From positions 186,001 to 250,000 of the forward strand of contig NZ_JAQKPV010000001.1 of NCBI RefSeq assembly GCF_028200735.1: 64,000 nt of DNA, given 5' to 3'. Origin of the DNA: Streptomyces sp. ACA25 (lineage in GTDB: Bacteria > Actinomycetota > Actinomycetes > Streptomycetales > Streptomycetaceae). Each line of letters starts with the position of its first letter. The stretch's first letter is position 1. The notes under the pieces are model-generated. The model had not been told where the DNA came from, did no database searches, and saw nothing but the letters and a program-made list of their open reading frames with translations. Of this stretch, positions 47,278 to 63,343 are shown piece by piece. A program made the translations under genes and the position numbers.

Positions 47278-47396
47278 CAACGCGGGCCGTGCCGCAGGAA
47301 GCGCTGACCATGTGCTGGGGCACGGCCCGCAAGCGGTGCGCGAAGGTCCTCCAGGGCGAGCTGAAGACCGCGGTGGCCGCTACCGGGGACGACCGG

Positions 47397-48061: not shown

Positions 48062-48235
48062 CGCTGCGCACCTCGCTGGGGGTGGCGGTGTCGGATTCCC
48101 AGAGGAGCTGCTTGCGGAGGGTGAAGTCCCTCAAGTCGGTGCGGTCGAGGTCGCCGTCGAGGAGTTCTTCGGAGGGACAGCCGAGGTCAGACTGTGCCGA
48201 CAGCGTCCGATGCAGGTCAGCGGGCCGTGATCGCC
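48062..48235. other. unassigned sequence between the remnant and the left 43-bp repeat
   Basis: On the minus strand an open frame reads DLGCPSEELLDGDLDRTDLR and on to WESDTATPSEV, with acidic, gene-like composition but no start or recognised family. It may be another decayed gene of the older insertion. Confidence 0.3.
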
Positions 48236-48278
48236 TCAGGAGGCGTGCAGGAGGGCGTCTTCGCGCCATTTGAGGATC
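48236..48278. repeat. left 43-bp direct repeat (probable att site)
   Basis: These 43 bases are identical to 62909-62951, where they form the last 14 codons plus stop of an RsbW-like gene. Here the same sequence is detached from any gene. Together with the integrase remnant at the other end, this marks a probable att site flanking a 14.7-kb island. Confidence 0.8.
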
Positions 48279-48316
48279 AAATGACCCCCGGTCCCCGCTG
48301 ACCTGCCCCTTCACCC

Positions 48317-48380
48317 CGAAAACCACCGCTGACCAGTGCAAACCCCCTCCGCAGGTTTCCACTGGTCAGCACGGTTTTCG
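48317..48380. repeat. imperfect inverted repeat inside the left island end
   Basis: CGAAAACCACCGCTGACCAG (from 48317) is mirrored by a near-complement at 48354-48380, giving about 27 bases per arm with few mismatches. It lies 39 bases inside the left repeat. It could be part of the attachment region or a terminator. The gap 48279-48715 has no gene. Confidence 0.55.
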
Positions 48381-48388
48381 ACCCCCGA

Positions 48389-48406
48389 GTGCACCAGATG
48401 TGCACT
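48389..48406. repeat. GTGCAC-type arm-like motif, left copy
   Basis: GTGCACCAGATGTGCACT matches 15 of 18 bases of GTGCACTGCATGTGCACT at 62807-62824. Both lie about 85-110 bases inside the 43-bp repeats, as integrase arm sites often do. Confidence 0.4.
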
Positions 48407-48715
48407 CCCCCCAGCGGCAGACCCTGCGCCACTCCACTACAACCCAACCACCCTGCCGACGCGCTCGAAGCCCTCCTCGCCAAATTTCCCGACCCCAGCT
48501 CAACGCTCCCGCAGGACGAACCCTGCCGCCGACCAGGAACCGCCACGCAGCTCATCGCGGACTACCGGACTGGCTCCACCGTCCTCCGACTTGCCGACCG
48601 CGTCACATCGGCCGCCAGATGGTGAGCAAGACGCGAAACGTTACGGCCTGCAGATGCGGCGGGGTGGTCGCACCAGGGGAACAGCATGATCGTGGCCAGG
48701 CTTTCGCGAATTACC

Positions 48716-49927
48716 TCAAGTCCTACCGGCAACCATGTAGTAATTCCAGTGCACCAAATGCCACTCCCCGTCCATTGATGAGGGGGTTGGTTCTCCATCG
48801 GGACTCTCGTACACCCAGCGAAGTTTCCCTTCTTTTTCCTCACCGCCAGCCATGAATAGCTTCACGCTCACGACACAAATGGCCGCAGTCCGATGATCGA
48901 TGAAATTGATTTCGAAGGATTCGAGGTCGAAACCTTCGTAGCTTTGTCTAATCAGTCGAGGAAAACCGTTGCCGTGAGCATCCCGCTCGCGATTATTTAC
49001 TGACTGTGCCATGCCCCCGTAATTCTTATTCCTCCAGGACGTCAAAAACCGGTCGGTCGCTTCGTAAGCCTTGTGACTGGTGAAGCCATCGGAGTCCTTC
49101 CCTAGATTCTCGGGCTGCCACTCATCAAGTGCGCGCTTCACTCGGCCATTGTCGGCGATCTTTTTGAAGGTATCAGCCCACGATGGCTGCTCCGGCTTTG
49201 GCCGACTGGCCTTCTCTTTTGCCTTCGCCCAGTCAACAACGGCGAACAGGTAGTTCCATGCCTTGGTAGCAACAACCTCATTATTGAAGTTGAGGATACT
49301 GCCATGAACGATTCCGTTCCTATGAAGCTCATAGACGGGGTTCTCGTTCGGCTTGGTCCTGCCTTTTGTGAAGACCTTATGGACCCTCGCAAGCCCTCTG
49401 TGGTGACCAATGATGCTATCCCAACCGTCAAGCTCTTCGGGCTTTCTGGCGTGAAGGCCACGCCTAACAGTTTCAAATTCGTTGACGAATCCATCCATCA
49501 CGCTCAGCAGTACGTGAGTGCATGCGTAGTATCGCCCAGCCTTATAGTCGTCCAGTGCATACCGAACGAGATGCTCGCGCTTGCGCAAAGCGTCCATGCT
49601 CCTAAGTCGGAGCATCATAAACTTCAGCGTATTCTCATTTTGGTAGTAGCCAATGAGACGCGCCTCGGCGGTAGCGGCGTCTGGTGCATCGTTCAAGATC
49701 TCTTCGATTTTCGTGATCGAAAGGTCATCGTGAAAGATCCAGTTTCGCTCTCCCAGTACGACGTAGAACCGATCTGCCAGGTCGCCAAGACGCTGGATCT
49801 GCTCTTGAAGCTCCTCGACGTTCAGTCGCCTTTCTTTGGGGATCAAGAATTGAAACAGCTTGACCCCTTTAAGTTGCTGCTTCAACTCGATGAAAGACGG
49901 TAGGTCGTGAGCGGATTCGTACGGCAT
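48716..49927 (-). CDS. low-GC HEPN-motif hypothetical protein
   Basis: 403 residues from the ATG behind GAGGAAC. Base and codon use differ strongly from the neighbours (many AAA/AAT/GAA-type codons), a sign of transfer. The protein has a coiled, charged N-terminus (LNVEELQEQIQRLGDLADRF) and a helical region DDYKAGRYYACTHVLLSVMD followed by Rx4H in LHRNGIVHG (Arg203, His208), the signature of HEPN ribonuclease domains. A second Rx4H (RNWIFH) is at 61-66. The C-terminal 150 residues are unassigned. HEPN proteins act in toxin-antitoxin and phage-defence systems; here function is inference. It ends near the left island end. Confidence 0.7.
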   Translation of the reverse strand: MPYESAHDLPSFIELKQQLKGVKLFQFLIPKERRLNVEELQEQIQRLGDLADRFYVVLGERNWIFHDDLSITKIEEILNDAPDAATAEARLIGYYQNENTLKFMMLRLRSMDALRKREHLVRYALDDYKAGRYYACTHVLLSVMDGFVNEFETVRRGLHARKPEELDGWDSIIGHHRGLARVHKVFTKGRTKPNENPVYELHRNGIVHGSILNFNNEVVATKAWNYLFAVVDWAKAKEKASRPKPEQPSWADTFKKIADNGRVKRALDEWQPENLGKDSDGFTSHKAYEATDRFLTSWRNKNYGGMAQSVNNRERDAHGNGFPRLIRQSYEGFDLESFEINFIDHRTAAICVVSVKLFMAGGEEKEGKLRWVYESPDGEPTPSSMDGEWHLVHWNYYMVAGRT

Positions 49928-49998
49928 GAAAGTTCCTCGAAAGCTTCGGGGCATGGCACCCGATGAGGCGATGCCCGTCCGGCAGGTGATTCTTCTGG

Positions 49999-50553
49999 CT
50001 ATTCGGTCGGTGCGGGCTTGGGAATAGCGCGCAGCATGGCTGTGAGGATAGGACCGTCGGCTGAAGGTTGTTGAGTGCTGATCTGGTGGTAGCCCCAGGA
50101 CTCGTAGAGGGCTTTGACCTTGCCGTTGCCGTTGAGGGGGTTGACCAGGAGGGTGACCTGTTGCTCGGGGCGGTGGGCGAGGAGTTCGTCGTGGATGCGA
50201 CGGGCGGAGCCGGTGCCGCGCCAGGGGATGCGGAGCATAATCTCTTTGAGGGCGACGGTGGGGGTGTCGGTGCAGCCTTCGGGGAGGGGGGTGGTCATGC
50301 GCTTCCACCAGCGGTCGTCGGGCTGGAGGGTGTTGACGTAGGCGTAGCCGATGGGTTCGTCGCCGTCGTAGCCGATGACGGCTTCCCAGCCTGGTTCCGC
50401 GCCGTGGCGGGCGAGGCGTTCGCCGTAGCGTTCGACGGAGTAGTGGGGCTGGTGGAGCTGGTCGGCGCGGACCTCGGCGTAGACGTCGATGAGCGTGGTC
50501 CACACGGTGTCGATGTCGGTTGCGTGACGCAGCTCGATGGCGTCTGAGGTCAC
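49999..50553 (-). CDS. GNAT-family N-acetyltransferase of the island
   Basis: 184 residues, GTG start behind GAGGAG and overlapping the stop of the upstream regulator gene (GTGA), so translation is coupled. GNAT features: IELRHATDIDTVWTTLIDVY, EAVIGYDGDEPIGYAYVNTL, a conserved-looking EIMLRIPWRGTGSARRIHDE loop, and LYESWGYHQIS at the end. Pairs of an XRE/TPR regulator with a GNAT protein recur next to Streptomyces peptide clusters; the GNAT may modify or protect against the product, but that is speculation. Confidence 0.85.
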   Translation of the reverse strand: MTSDAIELRHATDIDTVWTTLIDVYAEVRADQLHQPHYSVERYGERLARHGAEPGWEAVIGYDGDEPIGYAYVNTLQPDDRWWKRMTTPLPEGCTDTPTVALKEIMLRIPWRGTGSARRIHDELLAHRPEQQVTLLVNPLNGNGKVKALYESWGYHQISTQQPSADGPILTAMLRAIPKPAPTE

Positions 50554-51818
50554 TGCGGGCTCCTCGGGTTTGCGCGGGTGTACTGGTCCCAGGTGCGGGC
50601 GGGTTCGCTGGACGGGGCGGCGATGCGCAGGGCGTTGCCGAAGTCGTCGAGCATGGTGGTGACGCGGGGGTGCTGGCCGGTGGGGTCGGCGGGGATGGAC
50701 AGGGCGGTGGCCACGGCCGGTTCGATGTCGCCTTGGCCGAGCTGGGCGTGGGCGAGGCGGGCGGTGGTGATGGCGCGGGAGCGCTGCATCTCGGGGCGGA
50801 GCAGGGCAAGGCTGCGGTGGGCGTGGGCCTCGGCCTCGTCGTAGGCGCCGAGGGAGAGGCAGGCGGCGAGGGCGAGGCTTTCCAGTTCGGCTTGGTCGTA
50901 GAAGGCGTTGATCCAGACCGGGCGCTGTTCGCCGCTGCGGGCCTGCTGAAGGGCTTCCTGGGCGTGGCCGAGGGCCTGGCGGACGGCGCGGTGTTCGCCG
51001 GTGAGGCCGTGGATGGCGGCGTGGCGGGCGTGGCCGAGGGAGGCGAACAGGGGGTCGCGGCGGGCGATCGGCAGGCGGCGGGCGACGTCGTTGGCCGCGA
51101 GGGCGTCCGCCGGCCGGGCCATGTGGCGGTAGAGGCTTCCGGCGTGGGACCAGATGCGGAAGGCGATGGTGGGGTCGCCGGACATGGAGGCGAGGCTGGA
51201 CGCCCGGTCGAAGTGGCGCTGTGCGGCGTCGAAGCGGCGGCCGTCGATGGCGGCCCACAGGGCGCTGGAGGTGAAGGAGGCCGCGCAGCCGTAGAGAGCA
51301 CCGCGCACCCGCTGGGTGGCGGTGCCGCGCGCGAGCAGGGCCAGGGCTTCGCCGGCGAGGGCGGAGGCTTGGATTTCGATGGTGAGCTTGCCGCCGTAGC
51401 GGTGGTCGCTGGCGACGAGGACGGCGAACTTGCTGAGCAGTCGTTGCACATCGCTCATGCCGACGCGGGGCTGGACGGCGTACGCGGGAGCGGCGCTGAC
51501 GGCAGCGACGGCGGCTGCGGCGGTGGCGCCTATGAAGCGGCGGCGATGCACGGGGTCCTCCGGTACCGAACGCGAGGAGTCTCCTCGGGGAACGAAGCCC
51601 AGTTCGGTGACCGGGCAGTTGAATACTGCCTCTAAGGCTGCCCGCTGCCGTTGGTGCGGCCAGCGGGATTTTCCGGTCAGCCAGTTCCGGACCGTCCGGT
51701 CGCTGACCGTGCCCTCGTAACCGGCGGCCCGCAGGTCGGCGTTGACGGCTTCGGCCAGCTCAGCCTGGGTGAACCCTTCGTCATCCATGCGCTGCTTGAG
51801 GATTTCGTTGCCCTCCAC
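50550..51818 (-). CDS. XRE-type helix-turn-helix regulator with TPR-like domain
   Basis: 422 residues. The N-terminal HTH (about residues 5-75: LKQRMDDEGFTQAELAEAVN, GTVSDRTVRNWLTGKSRWP) is followed by a basic link and an Ala-rich hydrophobic stretch (RRRFIGATAAAAVAAVSAAP). A long helical repeat region of TPR kind follows (about 130-400). This architecture is frequent among Streptomyces regulators that sense small signals or peptides. It is divergent from the lanthipeptide operon, with 230 bases between, so it is the likely local regulator of that cluster. Confidence 0.85.
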   Translation of the reverse strand: MEGNEILKQRMDDEGFTQAELAEAVNADLRAAGYEGTVSDRTVRNWLTGKSRWPHQRQRAALEAVFNCPVTELGFVPRGDSSRSVPEDPVHRRRFIGATAAAAVAAVSAAPAYAVQPRVGMSDVQRLLSKFAVLVASDHRYGGKLTIEIQASALAGEALALLARGTATQRVRGALYGCAASFTSSALWAAIDGRRFDAAQRHFDRASSLASMSGDPTIAFRIWSHAGSLYRHMARPADALAANDVARRLPIARRDPLFASLGHARHAAIHGLTGEHRAVRQALGHAQEALQQARSGEQRPVWINAFYDQAELESLALAACLSLGAYDEAEAHAHRSLALLRPEMQRSRAITTARLAHAQLGQGDIEPAVATALSIPADPTGQHPRVTTMLDDFGNALRIAAPSSEPARTWDQYTRANPRSPQ

Positions 51819-52049
51819 AGCCTCACGGTAGCCACGTCATCGCGCTCCGCTGAACCGCTCGGCCCGCAAATTTCCGGTTGGCCGCACTGCACGGGCGGAC
51901 CGGTTTTCCTCCCGCTCCCCGGCTGTCGCTCGTTGAACTGGACACCTGCCGCCGCACCGGACGGCACCGACGACCGAGAGGAGGACGCCGCACTCGGCCC
52001 CCGAGCCGGGGCAGCAGCAGCCACCGCCGCTCACCACCACGAGGTCCTG

Positions 52050-52472
52050 ATGACCATCACCGCCACTGTCCGACTGACCGAGCGACCCAGATACAGCAGA
52101 ACCCTGCCGCGCGCGGCGAAGAGCGCCCGAGGGGCACGCACGCTGGTGCGCACCGCCCTGACCGCGTGGGGTCTGGATGGGATAGCCGGGGACGGCGAGC
52201 TGGTCGTCACCGAGCTGGTAGCCAACACCGTCGAGCACGCCAGGGGCCACCACGTCCGGGTCACCTTGACGCGGGTGGGGCCGGGCCGGGTGCGGATCGC
52301 GGTCGTGGACCTGTCCCGCACGCGGCCGGTGCGGCGTGCTGCCGGTGACGACGAGGTCCGCGGGCGCGGCCTGGCATTGGTGGAGGCGTTGACCGTCAGC
52401 TGGGGCACGGACTCCAAGCGGTGGGGAAAGGTCGTCTGGGGCGAGCTTGCGGCGGGGGTGGTCTGCCGATGA
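52050..52472 (+). CDS. RsbW-like ATP-binding protein of the island
   Basis: 140 residues from the ATG behind ACGAGGTC. HATPase features: N box ELVVTELVANTVEHA, G1-like VVDLSRTRPVRR (degenerate, without the usual DxGxG), G2 EVRGRGLALVEAL. The degenerate G1 suggests a binding rather than kinase role. It is the first gene of the plus-strand operon, coupled to the next ORF by ATGA. FxLD clusters often start with such a protein. A second RsbW-like gene hosts the island's attachment site. Confidence 0.82.
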   Translation: MTITATVRLTERPRYSRTLPRAAKSARGARTLVRTALTAWGLDGIAGDGELVVTELVANTVEHARGHHVRVTLTRVGPGRVRIAVVDLSRTRPVRRAAGDDEVRGRGLALVEALTVSWGTDSKRWGKVVWGELAAGVVCR

Positions 52473-52699
52473 GTGGGCGTCACCGTCGCAAGTTGCCGTC
52501 GGCCGACGGCCGGTTCGCCGGCGCCGTCATGATCGCGGCGAATCTGGTCGGTATCGGCGCGGTGTTGTATGTCGGCGATGCCACCGCTTCCGCGGCGGTT
52601 TCCGCGCCCGACCGTCCGTTCGCCGATGACCCGGACGAGCAGGGCGCTGCGCGCGCCGCTCCGGGCAGCCGCTGCCGTGACGGTACGCCGCTTTCCTGA
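52469..52699 (+). CDS. small hypothetical membrane protein
   Basis: 76 residues, start overlapping the previous stop (ATGA). A basic beginning (MSGRHRRKLPSADGRF) precedes one membrane helix (AGAVMIAANLVGIGAVLYVG) and a polar tail. It could anchor or escort another cluster product. No family is recognised. The coupling and hydrophobic segment support a real gene, though a short one. Confidence 0.55.
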   Translation: MSGRHRRKLPSADGRFAGAVMIAANLVGIGAVLYVGDATASAAVSAPDRPFADDPDEQGAARAAPGSRCRDGTPLS

Positions 52700-52789
52700 T
52701 CTGTCTGATTCACCCATGACGGCCGCCCTGCCTGTCCCACGTCCGGCAGGGAACGGCCGGGCCCGCACCCCCGAGCGGGCCTGCATCAC

Positions 52790-52839
52790 CCGCTTCCTCC
52801 GGGCCGGTGACCTCCATTTCCCCGGCCCGGAGGAAGCGG
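52790..52839 (+). terminator. strong hairpin before the NUDIX gene (terminator or attenuator)
   Basis: A perfect 18-bp stem (52790-52807 with 52822-52839) and a 14-base loop lie 39 bases before the NUDIX start and 90 bases after the small membrane gene. No T-run follows. It either ends the upstream operon or lies in the leader of the peptide operon as a control element. Confidence 0.6.
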
Positions 52840-52878
52840 CACCAGCCTTCTACGACCGACAGACCGAGGAGACCGACC

Positions 52879-53385
52879 GTGCACAACGAAGCCGACTTCA
52901 CCTCACCTCCCGGACGGCGCCTCGGAGCGCTGGCCCTCTTCCGCAACGACGACGGGCAGGTGCTGCTGGTCGAGAAGACGTACTGCGCCGGGCGGGGCCG
53001 GTGGGGTCTGCCCGGCGGGTGCGCCCATGCGGGCGAGCCCGCCGCTGTGGCGTGCCAGCGGGAGGCGCGCGAGGAACTGGGGCTGCGCATCGTTCCCGGC
53101 CGCGTGCTGGTCGTTCACCACATGCCCGCCGCCGGCACCAGCCGGGAAGGCGTGAACGTGGTCTTCGACGGCGGGCGGCTGGCCGCGGACACCCAGTTCA
53201 CGCTGAACGAGGAGCTGGCGTCGGCGCGTTGGGTCGCGCCCGTGGGGCTGCGGAGCCTGGTCGCCCCGTACACCGAGTGGCGCGTCACCGCCGCCCTGAA
53301 CGTCCTCGCCACCGACCCCGGGGCCGGCAGGCAGGACGGCGGCCCGGGTGTGCCGTACCTCGTCGGGCATGCCCCCGCAGCGTAG
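52879..53385 (+). CDS. NUDIX hydrolase of the lanthipeptide cluster
   Basis: 168 residues from a GTG behind CGAGGAGACC; the frame is open 24 codons further up. The Nudix box is complete: GCAHAGEPAAVACQREAREE followed by LGL. The family hydrolyses nucleoside diphosphate derivatives; why it is linked to lanthipeptide genes is not known. It precedes the FxLD methyltransferase gene by 39 bases. A truncated paralog is fused to a methyltransferase remnant at 47397-48061, so this pair has existed twice here. Confidence 0.88.
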   Translation: MHNEADFTSPPGRRLGALALFRNDDGQVLLVEKTYCAGRGRWGLPGGCAHAGEPAAVACQREAREELGLRIVPGRVLVVHHMPAAGTSREGVNVVFDGGRLAADTQFTLNEELASARWVAPVGLRSLVAPYTEWRVTAALNVLATDPGAGRQDGGPGVPYLVGHAPAA

Positions 53386-53424
53386 CCAGCCTGGCCGAAA
53401 CACGTCGCAATCAGGAGCAATCGC

Positions 53425-54669
53425 GTGACTACACTCCGCACAATGACGACCCAGACCACCCCCGAGGCCGCCGACATCACCGCCCTGCGAGAGGCCCTGG
53501 CCGACACGCTCCGCCAGCAGGGAGACATCCGCCGCGACTGCGTCGCGGACGCCTTCCGCACGGTGCCGCGCCATGTCTTCGCCCCACAGGCATCGCCGGT
53601 TGAGGCGTACGCCGACGACGCCGTGATCACAAAGACGAACGACCGCGGCCACCCCGTCAGTTCGGTGTCCGCCCCCTGGGTGCAAGCCCGGATGCTGGAG
53701 CTGTCCGGACTCGGGCCGGGCATGCGGGCACTGGAACTGGGGTCCGGCGGCTACAACGCCGCCCTGCTCGCCGAAGTGGTCGGGAAGGACGGCGAGGTGG
53801 TCAGCGTCGACATCGACCCGGAGGTGACCGAGCGGGCGAGCAGGCTGCTGGCGCAGACCGGCTACGACGACCGGGTCACGGTGCTGTGCGCCGACGGCAC
53901 CTATGGCGCGGGCGAGCTGGCGCCGGACGGCGGTTTCGACGCCATCGTCGTCACCGCCCAGGCGCCCGACGTGCCCCCGGCCTGGTCTGCCCAACTCGCC
54001 GAGAACGGTCGGCTGGTGGTCCCGTTGAGCTTCCGCGGCATCCACCAGGTCTTCTCCTTCGAGCACGAGGACGGGCACCTGGTCAGCCGGGGCCAGACCC
54101 GGTGCGGCTTCGTCGGTATGCAGGGCGACAACCGCCACGGCGGCCACACCATTGACCTCAGCGACGGCGACGTGCGGCTTGGCCTCAGCGACGACCAGCA
54201 GGCGGACGGCGAGGCGCTGCGAGCCGCCCTCGCCGCCGGGCAGGGCAGCACCGTCTGGACGGGCGTGGTCCTGCGGGGAAGCGAGGGCGTGCTGCCCTCG
54301 CTGGACCTCTGGCTGGTCAGCACCCTGGCGCCGTGCGCGAGGATCTACGCCAGCGCGCGGGGTGTGGAGCGCGGGCTGTCCGGTTGGACCATCGCCGCCG
54401 CCGCCACCTGGGAGGCCGGCACCCTCGCCTACCTCACCATCCGCCCGGCGGCCGATGGCTTCGAACTCGGCGTGCACGCCTACGGCCCGGAACGGGAACG
54501 GCTCGCTGCTCGCCTCGCGGACCGTATCCGTGCCTGGGACGACGGCGGCCACCGGGGTTCGGTGGAGCCGGTCGCCCGTGTCTACCCGGCCGGAACCCCG
54601 GACGATCAGCTCGCCCCCGGGCAGGTCATCGACAACCGCTACTCCCGGCTCGTCATCGCCCTGCCCTGA
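53425..54669 (+). CDS. FxLD-system methyltransferase (protein-isoaspartate methyltransferase-like)
   Basis: 414 residues, GTG behind CAGGAGC. The N-terminal two thirds (about residues 15-225) are a PIMT-like SAM methyltransferase: VSAPWVQARMLELSGLGPGM, the SAM loop LELGSGGYNAALLAEVVG, VVSVDIDPEV, DGGFDAIVVTAQAPDVP. A C-terminal extension of about 190 residues (HTIDLSDGDVRLGLSDDQQA..., LAYLTIRPAADGFELGVHAY) is specific to the FxLD system. PIMT-like enzymes in lanthipeptide pathways methylate a core Asp, leading to succinimide or isoaspartate. Here Asp57-Gly58 of the precursor is the obvious target (inference). Confidence 0.9.
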   Translation: MTTLRTMTTQTTPEAADITALREALADTLRQQGDIRRDCVADAFRTVPRHVFAPQASPVEAYADDAVITKTNDRGHPVSSVSAPWVQARMLELSGLGPGMRALELGSGGYNAALLAEVVGKDGEVVSVDIDPEVTERASRLLAQTGYDDRVTVLCADGTYGAGELAPDGGFDAIVVTAQAPDVPPAWSAQLAENGRLVVPLSFRGIHQVFSFEHEDGHLVSRGQTRCGFVGMQGDNRHGGHTIDLSDGDVRLGLSDDQQADGEALRAALAAGQGSTVWTGVVLRGSEGVLPSLDLWLVSTLAPCARIYASARGVERGLSGWTIAAAATWEAGTLAYLTIRPAADGFELGVHAYGPERERLAARLADRIRAWDDGGHRGSVEPVARVYPAGTPDDQLAPGQVIDNRYSRLVIALP

Positions 54670-54773
54670 CGCCGCGCCGCCTCACCGCCCTGGCCCCCTC
54701 GCTACTTCCCGGCATACGCGCCGGGGAGGACCCATCCCACCATTGCCTTCGTGCGAAGGAGCTGCTGACAGCC

Positions 54774-54983
54774 ATGACGCCACACAGCACCGCATCCGTC
54801 CTCGACGACGTTTTCGATCTCGACGCCCGCACCACTGACCTGTCTCTGCTCAACCCCTCGCTTGCCGATTCGGAGCCGTGCACCGGAGACAACTGCGGGC
54901 AGTCCCCGACCACCGGCCACACCACCGGCTGCGCCACCCCGGACGGCCCCATCGTGCCGGGCCTGGGGTGCAGCGCCCTGTAG
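54774..54983 (+). CDS. FxLD-family lanthipeptide precursor
   Basis: 69 residues, ATG with GAAGGAG upstream. The leader holds the defining motif FDLD at residues 14-17 (VFDLDARTTDLS). The C-terminal part is rich in Ser/Thr and has four Cys (36, 41, 53, 66): EPCTGDNCGQSPTTGHTTGC then ATPDGPIVPGLGCSAL. Dehydration of Ser/Thr by LanB and Cys addition by LanC would give up to four thioether rings. An Asp-Gly pair (57-58) lies between the third and fourth Cys. The leader cleavage site and any protease are not evident. Confidence 0.85.
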   Translation: MTPHSTASVLDDVFDLDARTTDLSLLNPSLADSEPCTGDNCGQSPTTGHTTGCATPDGPIVPGLGCSAL

Positions 54984-55067
54984 CAGCCGTCCAGTTCCCC
55001 CTCCGGGTGCGGCGCACCAGGCGTGCGCCGCACCCGGCAGGACCGCCTTCGTCCCGGGAGCCGCGTC

Positions 55068-57959
55068 ATGGTCCGAAGCGTGTTCCGCCACCAGCCGGTG
55101 GCCCTGGCGCGTATCCCACTGCGCCCGGCCGTTTCCGTGCCCGAGGAGGCAAGCGCCGGCCTGCTGGCCGAGGGCATTTTCCTGGCCAGCCGCGCCATGG
55201 GACAGGCTGCCGAGGCCACCCCCGCAGCCGACGACGCGCGCACGGCGGCCACGCGGCGCGCCTACGACATCCGCTCCCGCACCCGCACCACCCCGCACGG
55301 CGTCTTCGCAGCCGTCGCGCCCGCCAGATTCGCCGACCAGCCGGCCGTGCTGCGCCTCGGCGCGGCCCACCGGGCGATCACCACGCCCAGCGCCGCCTGG
55401 CTGACGACCGTCGCGGACCGGCTCCTCGACACCGGCGACGTGCTGCTCTCTCTGACCCTGACCACCAACAACCTGGTGCGTCGGCGCGGCGACCGGCTGG
55501 AGGCCGAACACCCCGCATCCACCGGCGCCAAGCCCCAACGCAGCAGCATCCGCGCAACTGTTGTGGCCCTGTGGCTGCTCGACATCTGCCGCGACGGTGC
55601 GCCGGGGGCACGCGTACTGGGCGGGATGACCGCCCGCTACCAGGCGGTCGATGAGGCGACGATCCGCGCCACCGTGCGGCAGATGATCCGTACCGGCTTC
55701 CTGCTGACCGACCTCCTCCCCGGCTCCATACGCGCCGATCCGCTTGGCCATCTCCTCGCGCGGCTTCCGCCCGCCGCCGCGCTGCGCCGGGATCTGGAAC
55801 GACTGCGCGAACTGCTCGACGGGGCTGACGCTCTGCCGCCCGGCACGCCCGAGCGGCTTCCGTTGCTGCGGTCCGCCCGCGACGCGGCCGACGCCTTGGC
55901 CACGGTCGAACGCCCCCTGACCACGGACACCCTGGCCGACGCCTCCCTCGTCCTGCCCCACGCGCTCGGGCAACAGACAGCACAAGCCGCCAGCCTCCTC
56001 TGGCAGATCAGCCAGCTCACCAGCCCCGCCGCTGAGTACCACGAGAAGTTCCTGCGCGCCTACGGCCGCTACCGGCTGGTGCCGTTGCTGGAGGTCGTCG
56101 ACCCCGCTACCGGCATCGGTCCGCCCGGCCAAGCCGACGACCTCACCACCCAGGGCGACCTCGACCCTCGCCGCGCCGCACTCCTCGCCCGCTTGCTGGC
56201 CCAGGCCACCGCACGGGGACAGACGGAGATCACCGTGGACGACGAACTGGCGCACCGGCTCGCGCACGGCGTCCGCGCCGAACCACCGGCAACCGCCGAA
56301 ATCCACGTGCGGCTGCTGCACGACGGTGACCAGCTGCGGCTGGCCGTCTGTGACGCCGGCTCCCAGGACGCCGGCACGGCCGCCGGGCGCTTCGCCCCCT
56401 GGCTGCCCCAACTCGCCCCCAGCAGTACCGACGCGGCGGACGGGGCACCGATGGTCGCCGAGATCGTCTGCCGCCCACGCACCGGCCCGACCGCCGCACT
56501 CGCAGTCGAGACCGGATTCGCCCTGCGCCGCATCCCCCTCGGCGTGCCCCCACGCAAGGGAGACCTGCTCCCGGAGGATCTGCTGGTCGGCTCCGCCGGC
56601 CACCACCTGGTCATCTGGTCCGCCCGGCATCAACGCCCTGTCCGGCCAGTGCTGTTCAGCCGCCTCGCCGCCGACCTGCTGCCCCCGGCCGCCCGTACGC
56701 TCCGTCTGATCGGCCACGCCGGACATCGACCCTGGCACACCTGGTCGTGGGGACCGGCCGCGTACGCCCCGTACACCCCCCGCGTCCGCTACCGGAGCGT
56801 CATCCTCGACCCGGCCCGGTGGCGACTCCCCGAAGACCTGATCGATGCCCCCGCCCACCGCCGCACCTGGACCAAGGCGCTGACCGCCTGGCTCGCCGAC
56901 GCCGTTCCCGCCCCGCCGGACATCGTCGTGGTCCAGGAGTCCGACCGGCAGATCCCTTTGGACCTGCGGCGAGAGGAGGACCGTGAACTCCTACGACGGT
57001 CTGTGCGACGCGGAGCCCGAGCCCTCACTGAACCCCTGAGCAAACCCGGCACCACCGACGCGCCTGTCGATGGGCCGCACGGCCGACACGTCATCGAACT
57101 CGTCATCAACCTCACCCGGCGCCACGGCCCCTCGGCACAGCACCTCGACCCACGCACCCGGCCGCGTCCCGGACCTGCCACCAGACACCTGCCCGGCGGA
57201 CCGTGGCTCTCCGCTGCCCTCCCGGTCCCCGCCGTCCACCAGGAGAGCGTGCTCCGTCAGCTTCCCGAAGTCCTCGCCCCTGCAACGGAACACATCCACC
57301 GCTGGTTCTGGCTGCGCTACCACACACCCGCCCTCGGCGACCATCTGCGCATCCGCGTTCACGGCGCCCCCGAGGCCCTCGCCGCCCACGTCCTCCCGCT
57401 GCTGGCCACCTGGTGCACCACGCTCGCCGCCGAGCATCTCGCCGGAGGAATGGTGCTCGAACCGTACGCACCGGAGACCGAACGTTACGGCGGCCCCGAC
57501 GCGATCGGCGCCGCAGAGGACGTATTCGCCGCCGACAGCGCCTTCGCCGCGCGCTGCCTTGCTCTGACCGACGCGCTACCCGACCGGCTGCTGATCGCGG
57601 CCACATCGGCGGCGGACATCGCCCGCACGGTGGCCGACCAGCCCCGCCTCGCCCTGCGCGGTCACGGCCTGTCCGCGGCCGACCGCCGCGCCCGCGAAAC
57701 CCTCCGGCCCCGCCTGCGCACAACCCGCACCGACCCGGCCTCCCTCATCCCCGCAGACCTGGCCGACGCCATGGCTGCACGACACCAGACGCTCACCGCC
57801 TACCGCCCCACCCTTACCGACCCCGACGTGGCCGACCTCTGTGCCTCCGACCTGGTCCATATGCACTGCAACCGCCTCCTCGGACCCGACCCCGCCCACG
57901 AACGGGTCACCCGCTCCCTGGCCACCGACCTCTTCCACGCCCATGCCCACCAGCACTGA
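55068..57959 (+). CDS. class I lantibiotic dehydratase (LanB)
   Basis: 963 residues from the ATG behind CCGGGAGCC. The N-terminal glutamylation domain (about 10-660) is recognisable from RRAYDIRSRTRTTPHGVFAA, FLRAYGRYRLVPLLEVVDP and the VVQESDRQIPLDLRREEDRE segment. The C-terminal SpaB_C-type elimination domain (about 695-950) contains WLSAALPVPAVHQESVLRQL, WFWLRYHTPALGDHLRIRVH and GMVLEPYAPETERYGGPDAI. It uses glutamyl-tRNA to activate core Ser/Thr and then eliminates glutamate to give dehydroamino acids. The gene overlaps lanC by 17 bases. Confidence 0.93.
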   Translation: MVRSVFRHQPVALARIPLRPAVSVPEEASAGLLAEGIFLASRAMGQAAEATPAADDARTAATRRAYDIRSRTRTTPHGVFAAVAPARFADQPAVLRLGAAHRAITTPSAAWLTTVADRLLDTGDVLLSLTLTTNNLVRRRGDRLEAEHPASTGAKPQRSSIRATVVALWLLDICRDGAPGARVLGGMTARYQAVDEATIRATVRQMIRTGFLLTDLLPGSIRADPLGHLLARLPPAAALRRDLERLRELLDGADALPPGTPERLPLLRSARDAADALATVERPLTTDTLADASLVLPHALGQQTAQAASLLWQISQLTSPAAEYHEKFLRAYGRYRLVPLLEVVDPATGIGPPGQADDLTTQGDLDPRRAALLARLLAQATARGQTEITVDDELAHRLAHGVRAEPPATAEIHVRLLHDGDQLRLAVCDAGSQDAGTAAGRFAPWLPQLAPSSTDAADGAPMVAEIVCRPRTGPTAALAVETGFALRRIPLGVPPRKGDLLPEDLLVGSAGHHLVIWSARHQRPVRPVLFSRLAADLLPPAARTLRLIGHAGHRPWHTWSWGPAAYAPYTPRVRYRSVILDPARWRLPEDLIDAPAHRRTWTKALTAWLADAVPAPPDIVVVQESDRQIPLDLRREEDRELLRRSVRRGARALTEPLSKPGTTDAPVDGPHGRHVIELVINLTRRHGPSAQHLDPRTRPRPGPATRHLPGGPWLSAALPVPAVHQESVLRQLPEVLAPATEHIHRWFWLRYHTPALGDHLRIRVHGAPEALAAHVLPLLATWCTTLAAEHLAGGMVLEPYAPETERYGGPDAIGAAEDVFAADSAFAARCLALTDALPDRLLIAATSAADIARTVADQPRLALRGHGLSAADRRARETLRPRLRTTRTDPASLIPADLADAMAARHQTLTAYRPTLTDPDVADLCASDLVHMHCNRLLGPDPAHERVTRSLATDLFHAHAHQH

Positions 57960-59211
57960 CGAAGCGGCCCGGCAGGCCCTGGCGGTAGCCCACGCCCTCC
58001 GCGACCCCGAACGCGTCACGGCGTCCCTCACACCCCAGGCCGCCGCGACCCTCTGCGACGGTCTCGCCGGAACCGCGCTGCTACACGCCTGTCTTGCCCG
58101 CGCCGACCCGCAGTTCGCCACCGCCGCCGCCCAGCACTGGGAGGCCGCAGCCCGCCTCGGCCGCAACACCCCACCGGACGGCATCCACACCGGCCCTGGC
58201 GCCCTCGCCGCCTCCCTCATCATCGGCACCGCCTACCTCCCCGACCCCGGCTCCTACGCCGACACCACCCGCAACGCCACCGCCTGGCTGTCCGCCCGCG
58301 CCGAAGGACTCGCCCTTCACCAGCAACGGCGCACCGCCCAGGGAAGACCCGGCGCACCCTGGGCGGTCTACGACGCCATCAAGGGCTTGGCAGGCATCGG
58401 CCGCGTACTCCTCGCCGCGCACGCCACCGGCCACCGCAAGCAGGCGCAACCGGGCCTCACCGCCACGCTTACCACCTTGACCGCCATCCTCCGCACCCGG
58501 CACGGCCAGCTCCCCGGCTGGTGGCTGCCAGCCGAAGACCACCCGTCCGGCGTCACCGTTCATGCCTCCGGAGCCGCCACCACCGGCCTCTCCCACGGCG
58601 CCGCCGGCCCGCTCGCCCTGCTCGCCATCGCCTACACCGCCGGCCGCACCGTCCCCGGCCAGGCAGAAGCCATTCGCACCACCGCCACCTGGCTGACCAC
58701 CCACCGCGACGCCGACGGCTCCTGGCCACCACACATCAGCGGCGACACGCTCGACCACCCACCGACCCCCGTCGCCCCACGCTCACCCGGAAGGCGCGAC
58801 GCCTGGTGCTACGGCACCCCCGGCATCGGTCGCGCCCTCACCCTCGCCGGCCACGCCCTGACAGACCCGACCCTGACCACCGCCGGACGCACCGCCATCG
58901 ACCGCCTTGCCGAACGCCGGCCCACCGCCTGGGACACTGAAGGCCCCACCCTCTGCCACGGAACAGCCGGAACCCTCCAAGCCGCCACCCGAACCGGCCA
59001 CCCGGCGGTGGCGGCACAAGCGGCCGAGCACATCACCGCACTCCACGACCCCGACCGCCCCTTCGGCTTCCCCCACATCGAAGCTGGCGTCCGGTTCGAC
59101 AACCCCGGCTTCCTGACCGGCGCCGGTGGGGTGGCCCTCGCCCTCGCCGACCACACCGGACTACTCTCCGACCCCACCACCGCCTGGGACTCCCTGCTCC
59201 TCCTGTCATGA
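57943..59211 (+). CDS. lanthionine synthetase C family protein (LanC)
   Basis: 422 residues, starting inside the end of the dehydratase gene. The double-helical toroid repeats are visible, with the zinc ligands Cys289 (AWCYGTPG) and Cys338-His339 (LCHGTAG), plus conserved His218 (GLSHGAAG). It catalyses Michael-type addition of Cys thiols to dehydroamino acids in the precursor encoded at 54774-54983. With all metal ligands present it should be active. It is the last clear gene of the operon. Confidence 0.93.
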   Translation: MPTSTDEAARQALAVAHALRDPERVTASLTPQAAATLCDGLAGTALLHACLARADPQFATAAAQHWEAAARLGRNTPPDGIHTGPGALAASLIIGTAYLPDPGSYADTTRNATAWLSARAEGLALHQQRRTAQGRPGAPWAVYDAIKGLAGIGRVLLAAHATGHRKQAQPGLTATLTTLTAILRTRHGQLPGWWLPAEDHPSGVTVHASGAATTGLSHGAAGPLALLAIAYTAGRTVPGQAEAIRTTATWLTTHRDADGSWPPHISGDTLDHPPTPVAPRSPGRRDAWCYGTPGIGRALTLAGHALTDPTLTTAGRTAIDRLAERRPTAWDTEGPTLCHGTAGTLQAATRTGHPAVAAQAAEHITALHDPDRPFGFPHIEAGVRFDNPGFLTGAGGVALALADHTGLLSDPTTAWDSLLLLS

Positions 59212-59212
59212 C

Positions 59213-59353
59213 ATGATGCGTGGTCGCGCTCGCAGGAAAGGGTTGGTGGGAACGGACGAGCTGCTGGTGGCCCTATCAGTCCCGAGGGCCAGCTACGCCC
59301 GTGGAGTGACATCCGCCACCGTGGCCGTTGGCGCGGCGGCACTGGCGAGGTGA
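59213..59353 (+). CDS. short ORF resembling a Clp N-domain fragment
   Basis: 46 codons starting two bases after the lanC stop. The stretch RRKGLVGTDELLVALSVPRA resembles one helix pair of a Clp/ClpC N-terminal repeat (..HLLLALL..), the rest (SYARGVTSATVAVGAAALAR) does not. Probably a decayed fragment left when the cargo joined the helicase gene, or a chance ORF. Confidence 0.3.
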   Translation: MMRGRARRKGLVGTDELLVALSVPRASYARGVTSATVAVGAAALAR

Positions 59354-59363
59354 TGACCGTGCG

Positions 59364-61961
59364 CTATGCCACGGTGATCGGGAGGCTGGTCACCAGGGCG
59401 AGCCACTGGCTGGGGAGAGCCTGTCGCTTGCTGAGGAGGTTTGCGACGACAGGCCGGGCATCTATGGGCTCCATCCGGCTGGTTTGGGACCGGATCGCTC
59501 CCCAGGCGGCCAGCACTCGCTCCGCGATCTGCTGGATCGGTTCGGGCGTCACCAGGAACAACGGCCTGCCGGTCGCGACCAGCCTGGCGTCATGGGCCAC
59601 ATCGGTCTGGGGGGTGACGAACAAGATCACCGACCCTTCGGGGACCTCACGATCGGTTACTCCCGCCGCGTAGTTCAGGTGCGTCAGTGCCTCGCGTACC
59701 TTTCTGGAAGCGATCTTTGAGCCTGTGGCCCCGGACTTGGCCTCGATCGCGAGCCAGAAGTGTTCGCCGAACATCCACACGGCGTCGGGCTCAGAGTGCG
59801 CGGAGGAGCGTTGCAGGACTTCGGCTCCCATGAGCTCGCCCAGCGCGATCAAGCCGTGCTCGAAGAGGGTGCTGTCGGTCTGCCCCAGCCCGTCCCTAAT
59901 CTTCTGCTCCAGCGCCAGCGGCTTCATATCGGTTCGCAGCGCGTGGTCGGCGATTTGGTCGATCACCCACTCGTCCAGGGGGTCGAGCGCGGTTACCTCA
60001 GCCTGGCTGTCCGGAGTGAGGAGGGCTATCGCGTCGAGGTTCAACTCGCTCAGCCACTGTGTCCCCTGTGCGGAGACGCGCGCGTCATCGAAGGACCGGC
60101 CCGCCACTCCCGCCCAATGAGACCCACCTGCGCCTTGAGCCGCTAGGACGGCCCAGGCCCCGGCGAGGTACTGCCACAGCGCGCGGTAGTGGCTGTCGCC
60201 GCCGGCGAGCGCTTCGATCGCTTTCCGTGCGCGTTCCACGGCCCTTTCCCAGTTGTGGTGCCACGCCGCGTTGGCAGCCTCGACCTCAAATCGGGCTGCA
60301 GTCTGCAAATGGGGTGTGCCCTCCGGTACACGGTGTGGCCGGTCGTCGGTCTGTTCGCGCTCACGGACGAATTCGTCGACCTGGGCCCAGTCGGCGCCCC
60401 CGGCGGAGACGGTAGCCAGAGCCTCCCGTAGTCCGGCCTCCGAGAGGTCCTCCTGTTCCAGGCCGAAGTTGATCTCTGCGCGGATCTCGGCGGGCATGGT
60501 GTCCAGGTGGGTCGCGCAGAACTGCTGCAGGTCGCGTCCGAGCATGATGATCGCCGCGCGGTCCTCGCTGCCGCGGGTCGCCCTTCCGGCTCCTTGGATG
60601 AGTCGGGTGCGGATCCGCTCGTTCAGTACCGTGTCGGCCCCGAGGCTCTCGTAGAGAAACCGCTCTTGCAGGTGAGCACCGGTCGGGCAACCGTGCATGA
60701 CGATGAGCCGACAGGTGTCGCCGGGAAGGTCGATCCCGTCGTACCGGTTGGCGGCAGCCAGCAGCCCGCGCTCGGCGTCGCGGAACTCCTCCGGAGCATC
60801 GTCCGCCTCGCCCGTGGCCCACTGCGGCATGCCGACCGGGGCCACCACCTTGACCAACTGCGTGCGCTCCTTTTCGCTGCGGGCGATCACCAGGGCCTTG
60901 CCGAAGGCGTCGATCTGCTCGCGCACGAACCCGTGAAGCCTGTCGTCGCCGAGGCCAGGGGTGAGGCTGGGGAAGCAGAAGAAGCGCCTGCCGTTGCCCT
61001 CCTCGGGGTTGTCGCTTTCCGCATCGGAGGCGAGAGCAACGGGGTCTAGTTCGATCCGATCGATCCGCCGTCGTCCGAAGGCGCGCTCCAACTCTCCGCC
61101 TGTGCCGAGCGTGGCTGACATGTAGATCCGCTGGGCAGCGTCCTCGAACTCCTTGTGCGACAGAGTGGGAGGTACCACCGGCCGGATGAAGACCTCGTCG
61201 CTGTTCACGTAGACCAGGCACGCCGCCAGCCCGGTGTGCCCTAGCTTCTCGTAGGCGAAACGCCACCGCGGCTTATAGACCAGCGCCTGCTCTAGAACCT
61301 GCTCCAGCTTCGAGGCGGCCAGTGTCGTTTCGGCGACGCCCGCGAGGTACACGCGGCCCGCTGTGCGGTGATGCAGTCGCCTTGCAACGGCGGCGCTGAA
61401 GGCACCGCAGCCTGTGAGCACCTCGACGACCTGGTCATACGTCGCGCTCTCCCAGCGACGCTCGATGCGCACGCTCCAGGTAGAAGCGACCGGGCTCTCT
61501 GCCGCGTGCGCGTCGTCCAGAACGATGGCCTGCGGTGCCATCTTCGGACTGGAGTTGAACACAGCGTTGAACGTCGCGAAGGCCACAGCCTGCTTCCGCA
61601 CGAAGCGCAGGTCCGTCCCAGCCCATTCCGTGTGCTTGCCGGTCAGGTCCACCGCCGGTACGCCGTAGAGCTCTGCTAACCGGGCGGCCTGCTGGGCAAG
61701 CTGCCGGGTCGGCGCCAGGTAGGCCACACGCTCGTTCTTGCTGCGACGCCGCCACTCCGCGATCAGGCAGCCCACAAGGGTCTTCCCCGACCCGGTGGGC
61801 ATCTCGAACGCCAGATCCTTGCTCCCGAGCTTCTCCATGTACGCGCCCAAGACGCTTCGCTGGCGCGCATGGAGCTTGTCCGGCGCCTCAGGTCGACGCT
61901 CCAACTGCTTGAACAGGGCCATCGGCGACTCCGCGCCCGCCGCAGGTGTGCTGTTTTTCAT
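59364..61961 (-). CDS. DEAD/DEAH-type helicase with C-terminal PD-(D/E)XK-like nuclease motif
   Basis: 865 residues from ATG 61959-61961 (no good ribosome site; a start 12 codons upstream is possible). Superfamily 2 motifs: I MPTGSGKT (57-61), Ia APTRQLAQQ, II LDDAHAA (DDAH, 149-152), III MSATLGTG, VI QGAGRATRG. A middle helical region is followed by a C-terminal domain in which EPDAVWMFGEHFWLAIEAKS supplies Pro-Asp (725-726) and Glu-x-Lys (740-742), the core of PD-(D/E)XK nucleases. Helicase-nuclease fusions are frequent in phage defence and restriction. It lies between lanC and the integrase remnant, within the island. Anti-phage activity is inference. Confidence 0.8.
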   Translation of the reverse strand: MKNSTPAAGAESPMALFKQLERRPEAPDKLHARQRSVLGAYMEKLGSKDLAFEMPTGSGKTLVGCLIAEWRRRSKNERVAYLAPTRQLAQQAARLAELYGVPAVDLTGKHTEWAGTDLRFVRKQAVAFATFNAVFNSSPKMAPQAIVLDDAHAAESPVASTWSVRIERRWESATYDQVVEVLTGCGAFSAAVARRLHHRTAGRVYLAGVAETTLAASKLEQVLEQALVYKPRWRFAYEKLGHTGLAACLVYVNSDEVFIRPVVPPTLSHKEFEDAAQRIYMSATLGTGGELERAFGRRRIDRIELDPVALASDAESDNPEEGNGRRFFCFPSLTPGLGDDRLHGFVREQIDAFGKALVIARSEKERTQLVKVVAPVGMPQWATGEADDAPEEFRDAERGLLAAANRYDGIDLPGDTCRLIVMHGCPTGAHLQERFLYESLGADTVLNERIRTRLIQGAGRATRGSEDRAAIIMLGRDLQQFCATHLDTMPAEIRAEINFGLEQEDLSEAGLREALATVSAGGADWAQVDEFVREREQTDDRPHRVPEGTPHLQTAARFEVEAANAAWHHNWERAVERARKAIEALAGGDSHYRALWQYLAGAWAVLAAQGAGGSHWAGVAGRSFDDARVSAQGTQWLSELNLDAIALLTPDSQAEVTALDPLDEWVIDQIADHALRTDMKPLALEQKIRDGLGQTDSTLFEHGLIALGELMGAEVLQRSSAHSEPDAVWMFGEHFWLAIEAKSGATGSKIASRKVREALTHLNYAAGVTDREVPEGSVILFVTPQTDVAHDARLVATGRPLFLVTPEPIQQIAERVLAAWGAIRSQTSRMEPIDARPVVANLLSKRQALPSQWLALVTSLPITVA

Positions 61962-62806
61962 GATGAAAGCCACATAGAACAGCACACCACAAATCACCCG
62001 GACCTATGACTGAAACCTGAGCGCGCCGCCAATTTGCTACATCGGCGAGCCCAGTCAACGAGCTCGCGGCTCAGGATCCATCACCCGGTATCCGGCGCGT
62101 CAACCTCGTCATCACGGATCTGTACGGTGATCGCTGGTCTGCCGGGCCGGTTCCAGTGCGGTGGGAAGGTGGCCTTCGGGTGCGGGCTGCGTCAGGGCGA
62201 GGTTCTCGGCGTCGCGGTCGAGGACCTGGACTCCAAGCAGCGTCTGGTACGCGTCAACCGGCAGATCAAGCTGGTGCGCTCCACGATGGTCTTGTCGCTG
62301 CCGAAGGGTGAGCGGGTGCGTACCGTCCCGATGCCCGACGAACTGGCGAGGGCTCTCAAGGCCCATATGAAGGCGTACCCGCCGAAGGAGATCGCCCTGC
62401 CGTGGGCCAAGCCGGACGGCGCGGAGCGGAGGTTCCGGTTGCTGTTCACCACGGAACAGGGCAAGGCGTATCACCGGAGCGTGCTGAACGAGGGCGACTG
62501 GAAGCGTGCCCTGGTCTCGGCCGGGGTGATACCGCCGCGCGAGAAGGGGGCGCCGCGCTTCGCCGCTGCCCCGGAGGACGGGATGCACGCGCTCCGTCAC
62601 GCGTACGCCTCCGTGCTGCTGGACGCGGGAGAGACGATCAGAGCCCTCGCCGAGTACCTCGGGCATTCCGACCCCGGCTTCAGGCTGCGCACGTACACGC
62701 ATCTGATGCCGGCGAGCGAGTCGCGGACGCGGAGGGCGATCGATGCCGCCTTCGCGTCGGGGGGAGGTGAGGGCGAGGGCTCCGGCGAGGGGGAATCCGC
62801 AACGGT

Positions 62807-62824
62807 GTGCACTGCATGTGCACT
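62807..62824. repeat. GTGCAC-type arm-like motif, right copy
   Basis: GTGCACTGCATGTGCACT, 84 bases inside the right repeat, is paired with the similar motif at 48389-48406. It lies in the 3' part of the integrase frame, where attP arm sites would be expected. Confidence 0.4.
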
Positions 62825-62908
62825 GGCCGCCTGGTCCGGGGCCGGGGGTGCGGCCGAGGCGGGGCCGGGCGGCCGGTTCCTGGGCAGGTCAGGCAGGGTG
62901 CGGGCGGG

Positions 62909-62951
62909 TCAGGAGGCGTGCAGGAGGGCGTCTTCGCGCCATTTGAGGATC
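62909..62951. repeat. right 43-bp direct repeat (probable att site, 3' end of host gene)
   Basis: Identical over 43 bases to 48236-48278. It codes for ILKWREDALLHAS and the stop codon of the RsbW-like gene on the minus strand, so insertion restores the gene end, the usual strategy of integrases that target the 3' end of a conserved gene. Confidence 0.8.
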
Positions 62952-63343
62952 TTGTCGAAGGAGACGACCGCGCCGCCGCTGCCGGGCTGGTTGGCGAACC
63001 GGACCCGGTCCGAGAGGGCCTCGATGAGCCGCATGCCCCGGCCGTGCTCCCGGTCCGCCTGACCGGCCGGGAGGGCGGGGGCGTCCGGCGGGAACCCCGG
63101 GCCCGAGTCGGTGACCTCGATGCGGCACATGTCTCCGTGGATGGAGGCCGTGACCCGGTAGAACTGTGACCGGTCGCCTCCGTGCTGGACGGCGTTGGCG
63201 CAGGCTTCGGACAGGGCCACCGAGAGTTCGTGCGAGATGTCCGCGTCCACCCCCGCCGTCTCCATCGCGCCGAGCAGCAGCCGGCGGGCCAGCGGGACGC
63301 TGGACGCGTCGCGCCGGAGTTGGAGAGACCACCAGATGCTCAT
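62909..63343 (-). CDS. RsbW/SpoIIAB-like ATP-binding protein (island attachment gene)
   Basis: 144 residues from the ATG behind GGAAGGG; the frame extends 56 codons upstream without features. A complete HATPase set is present: N box ALSEACANAVQHG, G1 VTDSGPGFPPD, G2 EHGRGMRLIEAL, and the C-terminal GGAVVSFDKILKWREDALLHAS. Proteins of this type are serine kinases or anti-sigma-like regulators. The last 43 bases form the right direct repeat of the island and remain in frame, so the protein is intact. Confidence 0.9.
   Translation of the reverse strand: MSIWWSLQLRRDASSVPLARRLLLGAMETAGVDADISHELSVALSEACANAVQHGGDRSQFYRVTASIHGDMCRIEVTDSGPGFPPDAPALPAGQADREHGRGMRLIEALSDRVRFANQPGSGGAVVSFDKILKWREDALLHAS

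Follow-up and report, generated by a model that had tools for sequence, protein, structure and literature searches.

What lies between two copies of one gene end that are 14.7 kb apart, and how did the second copy come to stand there? The question is raised by a locus of Streptomyces sp. ACA25 (RefSeq assembly GCF_028200735.1, contig NZ_JAQKPV010000001.1), from which positions 186,001 to 250,000 of the forward strand were analysed; this stretch of 64,000 nucleotides is called the window. In the window a 43-bp direct repeat is found at 48236-48278 and 62909-62951, and the right copy forms the 3' end of an RsbW-like gene. A preliminary description had taken the interval for a 14.7-kb genomic island. 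Judged from the sequence and its comparison with other Streptomyces genomes, the stretch 48279-62908 is very probably a decayed copy of an integrative mobilizable element (IME) that entered the RsbW-like gene at its end. The island reading is supported by elements at the same site and by empty sites in relatives, and it is refined here: the island is decayed, its left repeat is probably a tandem junction, and the variable region is wider (34687-62908).

Repeats and target gene

The two 43-bp copies are identical, as first described. They are the only copies in the window at up to 3 mismatches, none was found in 100 shuffles, and the whole 5.43-Mb genome contains exactly two, also at up to 3 mismatches. 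The right copy consists of the last 43 bases of the RsbW-like gene, stop codon included, which agrees with the earlier placement at the 3' end of this minus-strand gene. No callable gene overlaps the left copy (48236-48278), and its detachment from genes was also noted correctly. The target gene has a HATPase_c_2 domain, and its earlier label 'anti-sigma-type' is a guess at the family: NCBIfam places the gene near RsbA/RsbW/SpoIIAB with every match below cut-off. The tyrosine integrase remnant reported next to the right repeat was recovered at about 62106-62756 (Phage_integrase, E=7e-14). Of the 433-aa integrase of another genome of the genus, G208, it covers about residues 194-433, and about 193 N-terminal residues are missing.

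Occupied and empty sites in other genomes

The integrase remnant was searched in 382 genomes of the genus, and matches at E<=1e-40 were found in 220. Among the best 29 loci outside the window (L144-L172), only that of G208 combines the RsbW ortholog with a full-length integrase, which lies 84 bp from the gene's 3' end. Named genomes scanned with the G208 integrase gave 7 loci, 3 of which lie at the same gene end: S. aculeolatus DSM 41644, S. ipomoeae 91-03 and S. kronopolitis CGMCC 4.7323. Full-length integrase frames are present in all four relatives, and the window remnant is 72-75% identical to them over the catalytic half. The paired attachment (att) sites are spaced by 22.5 kb in G208, 33.1 kb in S. 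aculeolatus and 14.9 kb in S. kronopolitis, with exact repeats of 28, 24 and 46 bp, respectively. Both copies are on one contig in these three genomes; the second copy of S. ipomoeae is on another contig, so its element is only presumed to be continuous. Beyond the left att site, pepP, an aminopeptidase P gene, is found at about 16 kb in G208, 15 kb in S. aculeolatus and 2.5 kb in S. kronopolitis.

The gene order before the right att site (attR) is relaxase, DUF3631, helix-turn-helix (HTH) and integrase in all four relatives. The relaxase has a Pfam Relaxase match in G208, S. aculeolatus and S. kronopolitis, and that of S. ipomoeae, with no Pfam match, was recognised by homology (47%) alone. 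Beside the relaxase, a MobC/NikA-like gene is above the Pfam cut-off in S. aculeolatus and S. ipomoeae and below it in G208; no MobC-like gene was seen in S. kronopolitis. Searched with 14 queries from the relaxase, MobC-like, DUF3631 and HTH genes of the four relatives, the window gave no match at E<=1e-3, and no relaxase was found among its open reading frames (ORFs) scanned. A helicase sits between the LanC gene and the integrase remnant, where the relatives have mobilization genes.

An FxLD-type lanthipeptide cluster is the cargo in 3 of the 5 elements, split over two contigs in S. ipomoeae. The FxLD methyltransferase passes the TIGR04364 cut-off in the window, G208 and S. ipomoeae, and LanB has Pfam matches in the same three; LanC has Pfam matches in the window and G208 and was found by similarity in S. 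ipomoeae. The S. kronopolitis element carries glycosyltransferase-like genes. The cargo of the S. aculeolatus element (L253/L254) includes a radical-SAM protein, genes resembling asparaginyl-tRNA synthetase (AsnRS) and methionyl-tRNA synthetase (MetRS), and a protein whose cupin match is below threshold. Together these may form a peptide-natural-product cluster in which the synthetases confer self-resistance.

An empty site in related strains had been named as the check on the island. In total, 55 usable loci of the same genus around pepP and the RsbW-like gene were compared, with the window genes placed on each; three 10-base placeholders (L118-L120) were left out. Both flank genes are present in 48 loci and one is absent in 7 (contig ends or no match). 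In 19 of the 48, the gap between pepP and the RsbW-like gene is below 200 bp (53-182 bp between alignment ends), which represents an empty site; 386 bp to about 12.9 kb separate the two genes in the others. In none of the 49 loci holding the RsbW-like gene did the gene end recur (at most 9 ungapped substitutions, up to 20 kb each). The expected empty sites were thus found.

An att-pair scan of the 382 genomes, blind to sites with more than 3 mismatches and to elements split over contigs in opposite orientation, gave at least 2 hits on one strand in 20 genomes, with places visible for 19 (G192 unlisted). Two hits per genome were rejected as a sign of further elements: besides those of G208 and the source genome (G000), the hits are on separate contigs or are spaced by 238 kb or more.

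Structure of the attachment sites

The att sites of the 5 elements have in common a 24-bp core, GCGTCYTCGCGCCATTTGAGGATC and close variants. At the left sites, TGACCTG stands at core +44 in 4 of 5 elements and CGACCTG in the remaining one; in the window it is part of the left-arm motif CTGACCTGC. The second arm motif, CTGACCAG, is found at core +73 in G208 and S. aculeolatus and is inexact in S. kronopolitis and S. ipomoeae. At the right sites, three elements (window, G208 and S. aculeolatus) have the right-arm motif GCAGGTCAG at -44; its offset is -55 in S. kronopolitis, and S. ipomoeae shows CAGGTCA at -64. None of the 48 relatives having enough sequence shows TGACCTG within 80 bp downstream of the RsbW-like gene. 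The element-side arm motifs are retained at both window ends, with near-fixed offsets. Besides its homology with G208 (Table 1), the left end of the window element matches that of S. aculeolatus (69% over 130 alignment columns, E=4e-6) and weakly, on the reverse strand, S. ipomoeae (E=0.008); no match was found to the left end of S. kronopolitis.

Read in coding orientation, the paired att copies encode the same last 13-14 residues in all 5 elements, with 0 amino-acid differences. The copies are identical in the window and in S. kronopolitis and differ by 4 nucleotides in G208, 2 in S. aculeolatus and 6 in S. ipomoeae. All 12 differences in these three elements are synonymous; the gene end carried by the element has thus been under coding constraint itself. 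As a side observation, part of the RsbW-like gene is matched a second time in G003, on another contig (G003:C3:231890-232108), with the core present at 1 mismatch.

The repeats, the arm motifs, the homologous elements at the same site, the cargo and the decay are read directly from the sequence, and from them we infer the recombination mechanism, the replication and mobilization functions and the order of events. A tyrosine integrase would have recombined the 24-bp core common to the element and to the last codons of the RsbW-like gene. The element would supply its own copy of the gene end and leave the displaced host end at the far border; because it brings this end along, the RsbW-like protein would be rebuilt unchanged. 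In the full-length relatives, the module of relaxase, MobC-like protein where present, DUF3631 protein, HTH protein and integrase may serve excision, replication and mobilization by a helper. The window copy, with the catalytic half of the integrase only and the helicase in the place of the module, would be a fossil made of att sites and FxLD cargo that could move in trans at most. The att site into which it inserted probably belonged to a related, earlier element, and 47294-48235 would be the eroded end of that element.

Left side of the island

Just left of the left repeat, NUDIX and methyltransferase parts remain from a second, eroded FxLD cluster. This remnant shows 84-89% identity to 54142-54657, 87% over 54142-54677, and 90% over 537 bp to the cluster copy of another genome (G210:C11). 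On the outer side of the left repeat, GCAGGTCAG is present at -43/-44 in the window and in G208 and not in the other three elements. Since this outer motif and the FxLD remnant occur together, a tandem array with a decayed left member is the simplest reading. The remnant at 47294-48235 is thus a probable older, eroded related element, and the left repeat probably represents a tandem-junction att rather than a border with the ancestral chromosome.

Further left, a CNNM/CorC gene pair follows pepP. As it is matched after pepP in 8 of 55 loci, it is an older insertion that near relatives share; a ninth locus (L094) matches the pair at 36-40% in another arrangement and was left uncounted. Considering this older insertion together with the variability of the interval in relatives, the pepP-rsbW interval 34687-62908 is an insertion hotspot, and the island at 48279-62908 is its last part.

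A 39-nt palindromic repeat with a CRISPR-like look is present in two copies 76 bp apart (47165-47203 and 47241-47279). The CRISPR reading of this pair (47165-47279) was rejected: the genome has 2 copies, and a single diverged copy was found in 4 of 381 other genomes. In G369, about 300 bp separate the copy and another match to the same intergenic stretch. The repeat is probably a conserved intergenic element.

Integrase relatives

A 37-row tree was constructed from the catalytic domain of the integrases. The four rows nearest the window's by path are the other integrases at the same gene end. Target labels in the tree denote a match anywhere in the locus, and that of L243 is about 7 kb from its integrase. 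Of the 29 best loci, 24 have the 3' end of another protein-coding gene 66-76 bp from the end of the integrase and one has it at 401 bp; 3 loci are too short to show a distance to a gene end. No tRNA was detected by ARAGORN in any of the 29, each covered over at most about 3.5 kb. Sister integrases (L145-L172, L240, L241) use the 3' end of another conserved protein-coding gene, ending ...GHQPYCLVWP. The tail of this gene was matched in 30 of 36 related loci, L243 being the distant case, and its 100 residues gave no Pfam match. Plasmid forms were looked for and rejected, since the nearest integrase matches among plasmid records are below 60% identity (5 of 72,556 records at E<=1e-30). Relatives of the relaxase occur on 131 plasmid records at E<=1e-20, all below 60% identity.

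Alternative explanations

It is improbable that the real unit is one larger island from 34687 to 62908, in which the repeat at 48236 would be merely an internal landmark. The whole pepP-RsbW interval does vary (48 relatives span 53 bp to about 12.9 kb), it includes the FxLD remnant that precedes the left repeat, and 15-16 kb also lie between pepP and the left att site in G208 and S. aculeolatus. However, the right side of the left repeat has the anatomy of an element end and is homologous to the left ends of other elements, the CorC pair is an older insertion common to relatives, and none of the 8 ORFs scanned between 37474 and 46822 is an integrase. An island that is still active, excised in trans or by an undetected integrase, is more unlikely still. 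The identical repeats and the intact core and arm motifs would suit it, but the relaxase, MobC-like, DUF3631 and HTH genes of the relatives are unmatched in the window, and the remnant is the only close integrase match in its genome (1 match in G000 at E<=1e-40, the other mobile elements of the genome being unsearched). Least credible of all is an origin of the second 43-bp copy by ordinary duplication or gene conversion, without site-specific recombination: short repeats do arise in this way and the FxLD genes themselves are partly duplicated, yet geometry, core, arms and integrase recur at this gene in four other genomes.

The insertion of an IME, since decayed, into the end of the RsbW-like gene accounts best for the locus, and the following observations weigh against it or its details. 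The empty sites were seen in other relatives and not in the same species, and the exact empty site of this lineage is unseen. An element-scale att pair was found among the 382 genus genomes only in G000 and G208, which indicates that the element is rare or often diverged. The five same-site integrases share one side of a branch in only 54% of the bootstrap trees; to include the window's row, a well-supported set needs at least 10 rows, and 4 of these use the other gene. For the tandem array, the evidence consists of one 9-base motif and the FxLD remnant; when the window was scanned with a matrix, no third att site turned up left of 48236, and the 167 bp preceding the left repeat have no match in the other elements. 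The cluster copy of G210 has no integrase match or convincing att site in the 32 kb read, so the element is not the sole vehicle and the cluster also moves by other means.

Gene content of the island

The features of the locus are collected in Table 1.

Table 1. Features of the RsbW-like locus, in window coordinates
Feature	Position	Strand	Remark
pepP-like aminopeptidase P gene, left anchor of the conserved locus	33205..34686	+	Pfam Peptidase_M24 and AMP_N
CNNM/CorC gene pair	35038..37397	+	matched after pepP in 8/55 loci at 69-76% identity
Eroded remnant of second FxLD cluster	47294..48068	+	
Right-arm motif GCAGGTCAG outside left repeat	48212..48220	+	core start -43
Left 43-bp repeat (attL, or tandem-junction att)	48236..48278	+	core 48255-48278
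Left-arm motif CTGACCTGC	48298..48306	+	core +43
Element left end homologous to G208 left end	48328..48406	+	76% over 79 bp, E=7e-10
Second arm motif CTGACCAG	48329..48336	+	core +74
403-aa gene, low G+C stretch	48716..49927	-	R-x4-H stretch by eye
184-aa gene	49999..50553	-	55% protein identity to GNAT-like gene of G208 element
NsdA-family TPR regulatory gene	50550..51818	-	NF053720, E=2e-83; 50-51% to G208 element gene
NUDIX gene	52807..53385	+	
FxLD-system methyltransferase	53425..54669	+	TIGR04364, 406 bits, cut-off 320
Candidate lanthipeptide precursor, 69 aa	54774..54983	+	FDLD leader motif, Cys/Thr-rich tail
LanB lanthipeptide dehydratase	55023..57959	+	true start probably later
LanC cyclase	57841..59211	+	listed start overlaps LanB; true start probably later
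DEAD/ResIII helicase	59364..61997	-	PADLOC candidate defence model PDC-S28, E=1e-96
Tyrosine integrase remnant, catalytic half only	about 62106..62756	+	Phage_integrase, E=7e-14
Right-arm motif GCAGGTCAG	62884..62892	+	core -44
Right 43-bp repeat (attR), 3' end of RsbW-like gene	62909..62951	+	core 62928-62951
RsbW-like target gene	62909..63343	-	HATPase_c_2 domain

The genes of 52807-59211 have the composition of a predicted FxLD-type class I lanthipeptide cluster, namely LanB, LanC, an FxLD methyltransferase and a candidate precursor with an FxLD leader. The FDLD motif of the candidate precursor was found by eye in the translation; its DNA is 92% identical to G210, and no NCBIfam match was obtained for it. 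The lanthipeptide cluster and the helicase named in the preliminary description were recognised again, and its HEPN label for the 403-aa gene found no support in Pfam or PADLOC and no clear support in the PDB. Only an R-x4-H stretch, as in the HEPN motif, can be seen by eye. The predicted structure of the 403-aa protein (mean predicted local distance difference test, pLDDT, 38) was not used. The gene is likely of foreign origin; its region has 53-57% G+C compared to 71% for the window. The 184-aa gene shows 93% DNA identity to G210:C11 and has no Pfam match of its own.

Copies of the FxLD cluster also exist elsewhere in the genus. The cluster genes of the window show 84-93% DNA identity to the G210 copy, which is at another locus, and the core genes of the rsbW locus show 74-83%. 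The identity of the cluster above that of the core genes argues for horizontal exchange. The G210 and G145 cluster loci were rejected as further elements at the RsbW-like site, as both are at other loci.

Comparison with known elements

Cis-mobilizable elements (CIMEs) retain att sites. The window island, too, has kept its att sites and lost recombination and transfer genes; it differs from CIMEs in its recognisable integrase half and its natural-product cluster. Like canonical IMEs, it has att repeats at a specific target site and no type IV secretion system (T4SS) or FtsK-type transfer gene among its ORFs scanned, and it lacks a functional integrase and a relaxase of its own. The FtsK/SpoIIIE-type Tra gene that defines actinomycete integrative and conjugative elements (AICEs) was not matched among the window and G208 ORFs scanned. 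The motif G-x4-GK[S/T], which misses variants such as that of the window helicase, was absent from open frames of at least 250 codons in the window and in the G208 and S. ipomoeae pieces. One such frame each was found in S. aculeolatus and S. kronopolitis.

In the account of canonical IMEs given in the relevant part of one review (PMC5704250), these resemble the four relatives in having a tyrosine integrase, a relaxase, often a MobC-like gene, no visible FtsK or T4SS gene, and repeats that flank the element at the 3' end of a gene; the window copy differs from them in the loss of the relaxase and half of the integrase. One canonical actinobacterial IME is known to this review, as far as that part goes. 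CIMEs as sketched there resemble the window island in att sites with cargo and in tandem accretion with decayed neighbours. The AICEs pSAM2, SLP1 and pMEA300, as outlined in PMC3218068, are similar in their tyrosine integrase, DUF3631 (there the RepAM-type replication protein of AICEs), Streptomyces hosts and tandem arrays. Their defining gene there is an FtsK/SpoIIIE Tra gene, and most of them insert at the 3' ends of tRNA genes, whereas the present family has a relaxase and uses a protein gene. Tandem Streptomyces elements at protein-gene 3' ends are also described in excerpts of PMC10711302 and PMC4057263, namely TR1, an IME in aviX1, and CR/PAISt in bacA; these scab-associated elements differ in target genes and cargo, the att comparison being limited to an 8-bp palindrome (PMC4057263). 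Tn6104 of Clostridioides difficile, by its short description in PMC5704250, is likewise an IME with lantibiotic cargo; its Firmicutes host and, on our side, the FxLD class I cluster with an isoaspartate-type methyltransferase set the two apart by description.

A protein-gene target had been called less usual for actinomycete elements. Such targets are indeed a minority, but are known in Streptomyces, where the portion of PMC9513070 concerned gives 14 of 51 sites. Tandem accretion and decay are also on record in Streptomyces in passages of PMC9513070 and PMC10711302. Protein-gene targets, tandem accretion, decay and lantibiotic IMEs are thus already known, and this target gene is apparently unreported in the open literature: no report of the RsbW-like gene as integration target was found in open-licence PMC literature, supplements excluded, which does not prove absence.

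We tentatively consider, with more doubt than confidence, that these elements may form a distinct Streptomyces lineage specialised on the last codons of the RsbW-like gene, with a coding-faithful end that would leave the regulator always unchanged, and preferentially shipping peptide-natural-product clusters. The cargo preference is read from the FxLD lanthipeptide cluster in 3 of 5 elements and the radical-SAM gene with two aminoacyl-tRNA synthetases in a fourth; the window adds a candidate defence gene.

With this locus, a further protein-coding integration site is described whose core and arm motifs are defined and can serve to detect such elements and set their borders; the RsbW-like gene end may perhaps also serve Streptomyces vectors for integration. 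As all att differences are synonymous, they illustrate cleanly how an element leaves the protein of its host gene intact. Class I lanthipeptide families with such a methyltransferase are the largest class I families in actinobacteria, as stated in the part of PMC7268733 on them. The locus links this common cluster type to mobilizable elements, which could help to explain its spread. Colocalisation of lanthipeptide and defence genes has been reported for class II clusters, in the section of PMC12715929 concerned. In the window, the PDC-S28 helicase (59364-61997) stands beside the lanthipeptide cluster.

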